From positions 640,377 through 704,376 of the forward strand of contig NZ_JACBAZ010000001.1 of NCBI RefSeq assembly GCF_013391475.1: a stretch of 64,000 bases of DNA, written 5' to 3'. The number at the start of each line of letters is the position of its first letter. The stretch's first letter is position 1. Position numbers and translations under genes: made by a program. This document shows, piece after piece, positions 46,333-51,924 of the stretch. The notes beneath the pieces were generated by a model. It was not told the DNA's origin. It searched no databases and saw only the letters and a program-made list of their open reading frames with translations. The stretch comes from Oceaniferula marina. Lineage in GTDB: Bacteria; Verrucomicrobiota; Verrucomicrobiia; Verrucomicrobiales; Akkermansiaceae.

Positions 46333-46409
46333 GCACCCGTAGCTCAGCTGGATAGAGCGCCTGACTACGAATCAGGAGGCCGGGAGTTCGAATCTCTCCG
46401 GGTGTACCA
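46333..46409 (+). tRNA. tRNA-Arg (anticodon ACG)
   Basis: Complete cloverleaf with CCA encoded: acceptor GCACCCG pairing with CGGGTGT, D-arm around AGCTCAGCTGGATAGAGC, anticodon stem CTGAC/ATCAG with loop reading ACG, and T-arm GGGAGTTCGAATCTCTCC. The 3' 47 bases are repeated at 51878-51924, so this gene serves as an attachment site for an integrated element. Confidence 0.95.
46363..46409 (+). repeat. att repeat, left copy (3' end of tRNA-Arg)
   Basis: The 47 bases from the anticodon stem to CCA are identical to 51878-51924. Integrases commonly use tRNA 3' ends as attachment sites, and the left copy restores a functional tRNA. Confidence 0.85.
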
Positions 46410-46412
46410 CTT

Positions 46413-46449
46413 AAAAAACGCCGTAACCATCTAGGTTACGGCGTTTTTT
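46413..46449 (+). terminator. intrinsic terminator after tRNA-Arg
   Basis: Perfect 16-base arms AAAAAACGCCGTAACC and GGTTACGGCGTTTTTT with a 5-base loop. It may stop both the tRNA transcript and the convergent GH92 gene. Confidence 0.92.
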
Positions 46450-46464
46450 GTTTATAGCATCCTG

Positions 46465-49400
46465 CTACTCCCACTCAATCTTCACAGATCCTTCTTTAAG
46501 CAGAAGGTCGCTAAGTTTGGTACGGAAGCCTTGTGCTTTCTTGCCGTTGATTTTTACGGATCTTGCCTTACCTGAGTTCACCACTTTCTCTGAGGCTGTG
46601 ATGACCCAGTCTGCTCCGAGAGGTCGCTTGACTTCCATCTTCTCAAAGCTTGGTGGAACAAACTCCACCATCGAGTCAGCCCCAACACCGCCATCAATAG
46701 AGAAAATACCCATGCTAGATAGATTAAGCCATGCACTCATTTGACCTTGGTCCTCGTCACCGAGATAGGCATCGTAAGGAGTATAACCATAGTAGCGGTT
46801 GAGGATAGAACGCACCCATTTTTGAGTAAGTTCAGGTTTGCCAAAGGCATTGAACAAGTAGCTGGAGTGCATCATCGTTTGGTTCCCGTGATTCACCTTG
46901 ATGAAGCCCATCTGATCGGCAGGAGCCATAAAATTCATTGCTTCGGAAGCCTCAAACTCGCTATTGAGAATACCAACAGCTTTCTCTGATCCACCCAAAT
47001 ACTTCATCAGACCTTGAGTGTTTTGTGGAACAAACCAGCGCAACTGAGTATCGCTTCCCTCCACACAGTGCGTTTTGTCAGTCCATGCTCCCTGTCTGTT
47101 TTTAAAGCGCACTTTCAGACTGGCAGGGTGAATAGCGTTCTTCCAGTTATTAGCACGGTCTGAGAACATCTTGATCGTTGCAGCGGGACGTTTCAATGCC
47201 ATAGCCAGCTGAGCTGTTGCCCAGTCTTGATACGCGTATTCCAACGTGGAGCTGGCATAATGTCCGTAGCCTTTGCCTTCTGAGGTGACGTAGCCATACT
47301 TTAGATAATCTGAATAATGTTCATTACCAGCATAGCCGCCATACAGCAGATGCTTTCCAGGTGTAGTTTGCTGGTGATAGAATGCTTTCCATAATTTTTC
47401 TGGATCCGAGCCACGAACTCCAGCAGTCCAGGCTCCAGCCATCAACGGGAGCTCAGGAGATCCCAACATAACTCCAATCGCTTCCGCTCCAGCAGGTCCT
47501 TTCAAGGTGTATCCTGTTTTTTCAAAGTATTGAATTTGAGACTCCATGAACGTTTGTGATATCTCAGGGTAAACCCAGTTCCACAGTTGGTTCAGATTCC
47601 AGTGCGTTCCCCAGACCCCATCACTAGAGAACATTTCCAAGCCCTTTGGTGCGGTCTGAATTTTCTCTGAAGCATCTCTCCACCGGCCATCGACATCACT
47701 ACAGATACCGCGACCTGATAGACTACGGTAAAGACTCGTGTAAAATCGCTGACGACGTGTAGCGTCCTTTGTTTCCAGCGTGATACGCCCCAACAGATCA
47801 TCCCAAGTTTGCTTACTCTCCTCTACAAGCTTGTCTAAGTCCCAGCCAAATGGCTCAGTGATTTCGGTTTTAAGGTTGTTTGCGGCTCCTTCGATATCGA
47901 CCAGTGATATTCCTGTGCGCATATTGACGACTCCCCCCTTAGGCAAATCAAACACAGGAGAAAAGCCACAATCCCCGAGACCCTTGCCGCTGCGTTTATA
48001 ATCTATTGTCTTCACAGCTGTAGATAGTTTTCCATCCTTCCAGCCATCAAGCTGCTTGATAGGTTGATCAAACTGCATTACAAAATGGACGATGTAATCC
48101 TGTTTCTCCGGATAACCACTGCCCCAGTTCTGTTGCTTCGAATACCCTCGGATTTCGTATGGACTCGTTTGCTCCACATGCACTTCATTGATATACGTTT
48201 TGTATTCGTCCACTCCTGTCTGAAGGGCACAAATGATACGTGGGTCAACCGCTTTGGGATAGGTGTAGCGTTCGAGAGAAGAGCGCTTCGTTGCTCCCAT
48301 TTCAGCTTTGATACCCGTGTCTTGTAGCGTTACTGAATACTTCCCAACCTCAGCGACCGCTTCTTTGGGATTGATGCGTGAACGCCATCCAGAATCGGGA
48401 TCGAATCGACTCCCCTGCTTCACAAACATCTTGCCGTGATGTGGCATCGTCATCATTCCACTCATGGTCCATTCATGAATATGCCCGAAGCCAGCAATGG
48501 ACTCGACTTGATAATCATAGCCTCCTTTCCAACGTGCTGTTTCATTCTCTGGACTAATTCTCATGAGACACATAGGCGCTGCAGGCCCAGGCGTAATCAT
48601 CCAACGTGAGTTTGTAGTGCCTGCAAGCATATTCACCTCATCACTAAGACGCACGAGATCACTTTTCTTCTGAACTAACAGATCTCCTGAAACAACCCCA
48701 TCTTTGTCTTTAATAATAACGGATCGTTCGGTGTCCGTATCCACAGCAGGAAGTGGCACGTCCCATGACTGACGCCCCTGAAGGAAATCATGTGATTCTA
48801 CCATTTTGCCATCCACCCAAACATCAAGCGTCTGAGGCTGCTGCTGCATATTGATCACATCGATCACCAAGGCTTGGGTGCGTTGCGTCTTCTCATTCAG
48901 TCTATCTTTCCCAGCCATACTCAACTGTTGCACGGCGAAACTCCTTGGAGCTGCCAGCTTGAGAGTTGGATCCTCAGATTCAAAACTCACGGCATCGAAT
49001 TCAAGCCAGTCGCCTTTATAAGAATGCAGTCGTAAAATATTGCTACCCTGCTTCAGCTGACCCACAGGGATAGCAAAACGCAGCTGCTTTTTATTTTTCA
49101 AAGACGCCACATTGATGTCATGAGCAATACCATTCACCTCAAGCCTCACAATCGGTGCGTCTTGATGCACCTTCGCTACATCAATAACCAAGGCACATGG
49201 CTTGGTGGGAGCTGACTCAAGAGTGAAAGCAAAAGGTGCAAAATTAACACGCCACGACCAATATCCCATTCCAGCCCATGTTCCTTTCGTCCCAGGGAGA
49301 ATGTAAGTCCAGTCCTGAGTTTTATCACGGCCAACCATGAATAATCGATCACGGTCTCCCAGCTTTTTGACGTAACCATTGATTCCTTCTTTCGCACCCC

Positions 49401-51233: not shown

Positions 51234-51746
51234 CTAAATTTTTAGCCTCACCCCGGGTTGAGCGCATTCTTCCTTACAGCTTTCCGGTAGATGGACGCTT
51301 TCTGTTTCCCTTTCTGACTCGACAACTGGCCAGATATCGGATAGGTTGTGCTGCTCGAACTTACGCAAGTTCTCTTCATCAGCGGATCTAAAGGCCCATA
51401 CAACCGACGTCAAACCGCTGCGATGACTCATCTCTATCTGAGAACGATAAAGTTCAGCATTTTTCACCTCCATCACCCTTTGAGCAGCCTCACTAAGAGA
51501 AATGCCAAACGGCTCAAGCAGTGACGAAGCGCGGGTTGCCTCATCGGCCAAAGACGGACTAATGACACTAGCTTTAGTTCCATGTGCCTCGTAATCAGAT
51601 CGCAGCTCCGATGCAAAATTTTTAGCCTCGTCCCGGGTAGGAAAGAATATCCTTTGCCGCTTTCCCGTGGGAGAAAGACGCTCTGGGATTTCAACCTTCC
51701 AACCTGAAGTAGTTTTGGTGAATTTGAATGATGGCTTCCGTGGCAT
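51234..51746 (-). pseudogene. truncated tyrosine-integrase, N-terminal domain only
   Basis: The frame from 51746 (M-P-R-K-P-S-F-K-F-T-K) gives about 100 residues resembling the arm-binding N-terminus of phage-type integrases of this phylum: W-K-V-E-I-P-E-R-L-S-P-T-G-K-R-Q-R, F-P-T-R-D-E-A-K-N-F-A-S-E-L and L-L-E-P-F-G-I-S-L-S-E-A-A. After about residue 105 the sequence diverges and no R-H-R-Y catalytic domain exists. It lies 130 bases from the right attachment repeat, the normal position for an integrase. The longer frame to 51842 only translates the iteron-like repeats. Confidence 0.65.
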
Positions 51747-51760
51747 TTGTCTACCGCATT

Positions 51761-51833
51761 TACTGCCGGTATTGCCGGTATTGCCGGAATAAGTCAAGAA
51801 TTGACGGAACATGGCGAATATTGGGAATATTGG
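51761..51833. repeat. two short tandem repeat sets near the right att site
   Basis: Three 9-base units (TACTGCCGG, TATTGCCGG, TATTGCCGG) occupy 51761-51787, and two GAATATTGG units occupy 51816-51833. They lie between the integrase start and the att repeat, where arm-type integrase sites would be. Confidence 0.65.
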
Positions 51834-51877
51834 GAATTGCAAGCATTGATACTCAATAAGTTACAGGTATACCGCTC

Positions 51878-51924
51878 GACTACGAATCAGGAGGCCGGGA
51901 GTTCGAATCTCTCCGGGTGTACCA
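51878..51924 (+). repeat. att repeat, right copy (tRNA-Arg 3' fragment)
   Basis: Identical 47 bases to 46363-46409. The 5' half of a tRNA is absent (preceding bases are unrelated), so this is not a functional tRNA gene. Confidence 0.88.

Follow-up and report, generated by a model that had tools for sequence, protein, structure and literature searches.

The 47-bp repeat and truncated integrase downstream of a tRNA-Arg(ACG) gene in Oceaniferula marina are best explained, with a probability of about 0.55, as the relics of a satellite-type element, now dead and gutted, in a tRNA-Arg hot spot, where the GH92 and GH43 glycosidase genes between the repeats form the left end of an imported island of ~52 kb. 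On this reading, the second repeat is a scar inside the island and does not show where the foreign DNA stops, and the usual mapping rule, by which a tRNA gene and its displaced fragment delimit an island, misjudges its extent (5.5 kb instead of ~52 kb). Coordinates refer to the window, the 64,000-nucleotide stretch of DNA analysed, and are continued on the same scale beyond its right end.

ARAGORN identified a single tRNA gene in the 64-kb window, the complete tRNA-Arg(ACG) at positions 46333–46409 on the plus strand, which forms the left boundary of a block of low G+C content. The last 47 bp of this gene, from the anticodon region to the CCA end (core copy 1, 46363–46409, plus strand), recur as a displaced tRNA 3′ fragment at 51878–51924 (core copy 2, plus strand). 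The two copies match at 47 of 47 positions in direct orientation, with a spacing of 5,515 bp. A pattern search of the whole 5.07-Mb genome that allowed up to three mismatches found only these two sites, excluding chance as the source of the repeat.

An integrase N-terminus faces the second core copy from the minus strand (51439–51746). It consists of ~100 stop-free codons starting with an ATG at ~51746, and does not include the catalytic domain. Its open reading frame (51234–51842, minus strand) aligns at its N-terminal end with the beginning of a full-length, 393-residue tyrosine integrase (PF00589) of a congener, G013, at 47% identity over 95 columns. The integrase-like sequence stops at ~51438, and the reading frame runs on to 51234 through unrelated DNA. 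No Pfam model, PF00589 included, matched the reading frame, and a tblastn search of the neighbourhood with the full 393-residue integrase detected no catalytic part. Since the catalytic R-H-R-Y domain is present in neither the reading frame nor the region, the gene is a remnant and not part of an active element. The other integrase genes of the genome were rejected as the source of the missing half, as they share at most 29% identity over long stretches and none corresponds to it. A second integrase N-terminus persists as a decayed scrap at 51215–51301 on the minus strand, with in-frame stops and 34 of 44 bases matching the other copy.

Between the integrase start and the second core, positions 51761–51877 contain two copies each of the tandem repeats CCGGTATTG and GGGAATATTG, as in intact relatives, and these repeats are likely to be the arm sites of the integrase. 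On the tRNA side, the adjacent 400 bp of the interval showed no arm repeats (144 of 200 shuffles did equally well), and the arm sites are thus confined to the integrase end. The second core was also considered as an attP site and rejected, as no arms lie to its right. Collectively, these features bear out much of the preliminary description, which had proposed an exact recurrence of the last 47 bp of the tRNA ~5.5 kb downstream, an element integrated in tRNA-Arg, and a truncated integrase that had lost its catalytic half. The complete tRNA, the exact displaced 3′ fragment, which is unique in the genome, and the adjoining integrase N-terminus agree with all of these and record a site-specific integration. 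The proposed immobility also holds; the remnant is unable to move by itself.

The integrase of G013, the best match within the genus, adjoins a displaced 49-bp fragment of tRNA-Phe, located 8.3 kb from the full tRNA-Phe gene, and the layout is that of the window: tRNA, genes, and an integrase facing the fragment. This apparently intact, satellite-like element of 8.3 kb (G013:C1:440945-449258) is bounded by exact 49-bp repeats and encodes the integrase, an HTH-like protein, a CHC2/Toprim primase, a 555-residue protein and small open reading frames. Judged from its genes, it would resemble P4-like or PICI-like phage satellites in its integrase, HTH-like protein, primase and size class (8–9 kb), whereas the window copy retains the integrase N-terminus and no other satellite gene. 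An integrase, a regulator and a primase or replication module within 8–15 kb are found together in the G013 element and not in the window interval, where Pfam detected neither a primase nor a regulator among the open reading frames. Related integrases occupy tRNA-Arg-TCT in two other genomes, in an 8.8-kb element with a 50-bp repeat (G018, 667-9438) and an 8.1-kb element with a 46-bp repeat (G055). In these two elements the repeats are precise and the integrase lies at opposite ends of the element. A short repeat is common to both inner ends in G013 (12 matches) and G018 (13 matches), a pattern that integrase arm sites should produce; no more than 2 of 200 shuffles did equally well. The signal is weak in G055 (44 of 200 shuffles as good), and the restriction of clear arm repeats to two intact elements counts against our preferred explanation. 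Visual inspection of the open reading frames listed for the three elements revealed no recognisable glycosidase; the Pfam scan covered only the named G013 proteins.

As the preliminary description stated, genes of the GH92 and GH43 types lie between the repeats. The GH92 gene (46465–49506, minus strand; PF07971, E = 2e-102, and PF17678) has a GC3 of 0.469, and the GH43 gene (49772–50932, plus strand; PF04616, E = 8e-17) has a GC3 of 0.475. The search for GH92 relatives at E ≤ 1e-150 returned none in 190 genomes of the order. The nearest relatives of GH43 (~74%) occur in two metagenome-assembled genomes (MAGs) of Opitutia, with a sulfatase as the next gene in one and within 2.5 kb in the other. 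This neighbouring sulfatase is 71% identical to the sulfatase at 65406–66887, while the runner-up among the sulfatases of the block reaches ~32%, an association suggesting that GH43, inside the repeats, and the 65406–66887 sulfatase, 14 kb outside them, probably come from the same source.

The composition likewise continues across the second repeat. The G+C content is ~0.47 from tRNA-Arg to ~98.4 kb, as compared with ~0.53 on both sides, and the GC3 of GH92 and GH43 together (0.472) is close to that of the rest of the block (0.480, SD 0.04) and differs from those of the flanks (0.590 and 0.591). The low-G+C, low-GC3 block thus occupies the window from 51925 to 64000 and extends beyond its end, ~46 kb past the second repeat, and the displaced fragment does not mark a boundary of foreign DNA. 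The block encodes a two-component pair (53473–56191), a GH2 enzyme (56409–59528) and a GH95 enzyme (59629–62151), followed by nine sulfatases, a second GH95, a second GH2 and esterases up to ~98.4 kb. Several PEP-CTERM proteins are also encoded between 53473 and 98.4 kb. To judge from composition and from gene neighbourhoods elsewhere among bacteria, GH92 and GH43 look like parts of this ~52-kb island, and they are presumably not cargo of the integrase-bearing element, whose role in their delivery is unproven.

By analogy, the cluster from 53473 to 98.4 kb probably acts on a sulfated fucose-containing polysaccharide, as it resembles the Verrucomicrobiota clusters for such substrates (PMC8857213, PMC9865893) in its numerous sulfatases, in the accompanying GH95 and GH2 genes and in its marine host. 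It differs from them in its location at a tRNA hot spot and in the dead integrase in its interior, and the assignment of its putative substrate follows from this likeness. Our literature search found no paper joining tRNA islands to sulfatases or satellites in Verrucomicrobiota. The block might represent several separate acquisitions from one gene pool, which would speak against our preferred explanation. A third att or core copy, of its own type or that of the relatives, was found neither near 98 kb nor elsewhere in the 224 kb examined, and its absence at the right end of the island counts against our preferred explanation.

A 138-bp patch (51302–51438), copied from the right edge of the block at 97–99% identity, cuts off the integrase reading frame at ~51438 and is adjoined on its left side by the decayed integrase scrap. 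One piece of 104 bp is 99% identical to 98444–98547, and the other, of 34 bp, is 97% identical to 98938–98971. At the right edge, 391 bp that include a small lipoprotein gene separate these pieces; the patch lacks this segment. The parent sequence lies ~47 kb rightward, where the G+C content rises again (~98.4 kb). The small lipoprotein gene (98540–98940) is flanked by CATACAGCC repeats, and a copy without the gene sits in the integrase scrap; the lipoprotein was rejected as a conserved gene of the element, as no homologue was found in the 57 other genomes searched.

The tRNA itself retains information on the history of the site. A hairpin terminator (46413–46449, plus strand) directly follows the tRNA within the 55 bp between tRNA-Arg and the end of GH92. 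Among 116 terminator-like segments, ranked with the native tRNA-Arg terminator of the congener G011 itself and shifted copies of the 46413–46449 terminator set aside, the latter is the top match to the G011 terminator. The likeness, limited to ~40 bp, hints that the native flank of the tRNA may still be in place. Furthermore, the T-arm stem of this tRNA-Arg is GGGAG/CTCTC, as compared with AGGGG/CCCTT in all 11 congeners examined, a difference of two compensated pair changes. The variant is present in both core copies and in no other of the 190 genomes of the order. A genus-type tRNA target would leave a genus-type displaced copy, and thus either the variant arose before the integration or homogenisation has made the copies alike; unless one of these applies, the shared variant speaks against our preferred explanation.

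A comparison with 11 congeners revealed a common arrangement of LAM followed by tRNA-Arg, in most cases with a wHTH gene as well, and a single tRNA end in each. GH92, GH43 and the integrase are absent from the site in all 11, and none of them keeps the genes of the interval without the second repeat, the finding that the preliminary description had named as fatal to its proposal. The genes downstream of tRNA-Arg differ among the congeners compared, and none corresponds to those of the window. The native downstream flank was therefore not recoverable by synteny, as the downstream genes vary among the relatives.

These observations bear on three other accounts of the locus. The preliminary description envisaged a discrete 5.5-kb element that delivered both glycosidases into tRNA-Arg and lacks the catalytic half of its integrase; on this account a short stretch beside the tRNA would have been lost as well. 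Both genes do lie exactly between the repeats, neither occurs at the site in the congeners, GH92 is absent from the 190 genomes of the order at the above threshold, and a minor deletion could explain the missing tRNA-side arm of an element that truly carried GH92 and GH43. However, this arm is missing, the glycosidases match the DNA to the right of the second repeat in GC3 and GH43 probably shares its source, where low GC3 runs on for ~46 kb and the GH43-associated sulfatase is encoded, and the intact kin contain no recognised glycosidases. We consider delivery by such an element unlikely. Tandem islands in the same tRNA, a large one (52–98 kb) inserted before a small one (46.4–51.9 kb), with the outer island having lost its own integrase and tRNA fragment, would account for the low G+C content to the left and right of the second repeat and for the remnants of two integrase N-termini. 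Islands in tandem have precedents at tRNA genes (Islander, PMC4383910), and the same rare T-arm in both cores would be explained if both elements had brought it. This arrangement is nevertheless quite improbable: GH43 and the outer block have a common source, and the 224 kb examined, the region around 98 kb included, yielded no further core, whether of the window's own type or that of the relatives.

Alternatively, the integrase could have brought the entire ~52-kb island in a single event, after which the end with the integrase and the tRNA fragment moved from the right edge to the interior. The patch beside the integrase scrap, a near-identical copy of right-edge sequence, is consistent with such a move, but the known intact elements of this integrase measure only 8–9 kb, and no simple single rearrangement produces the observed order with all repeats direct. 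We regard this account as very unlikely.

In the history that we favour, the likely order of events would begin with a small integrative element, of the kind found in the 8–9-kb satellite-like elements of related Verrucomicrobiales, whose tRNA-targeting tyrosine integrase inserted it into tRNA-Arg(ACG) at the anticodon end. The tRNA-side arm, the element body and the catalytic domain of the integrase would then have been lost, leaving the integrase-side end, with the displaced 47 bp of tRNA, the putative arm sites and ~100 integrase codons. The cut in the integrase may have been sealed with the 138-bp patch, whose sequence also occurs at the distant edge of the adjoining island. The GH92 and GH43 genes would now fill the space, as the left end of an imported ~52-kb sulfatase and glycosidase island reaching from the tRNA to ~98.4 kb. 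More tentatively, the carbohydrate island may have grown at the tRNA hot spot by swallowing and also cannibalising a phage-satellite-type element, whose attachment end persists as a fossil inside the sulfatase/fucosidase cluster and whose intact kin may constitute an undescribed family of Verrucomicrobiales satellites.

The locus shares with tRNA islands of the Islander class (PMC4383910) a full tRNA, a displaced 3′ fragment in the same orientation and a tyrosine-integrase gene beside the fragment, here an N-terminal remnant in the interval. It departs from this class in that the island DNA runs ~46 kb beyond the fragment, and the integrase catalytic part and one arm have been lost. Overall, we see ordinary island biology with an instructive twist, and a lead on a little-studied group of 8–9-kb satellite-like integrative elements in Verrucomicrobiales.

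Immediately to the right of the block lies a hydrolase gene (99083–99778), which in the congener G009 is located 14 kb to the right of tRNA-Arg on the same strand. The block would thus fill the interval between two probably old neighbours, and, from this gene order, the interval from tRNA-Arg to the hydrolase seems to be an insertion hot spot. In G009, the 14-kb interval contains a sulfatase and genes that by eye are L-rhamnose isomerase-like and rhamnulokinase-like. The site may therefore collect sugar-use genes repeatedly, making tRNA-Arg a place where polysaccharide-degradation genes may accumulate, with 52 kb here and 14 kb of rhamnose-type and sulfatase genes in G009.
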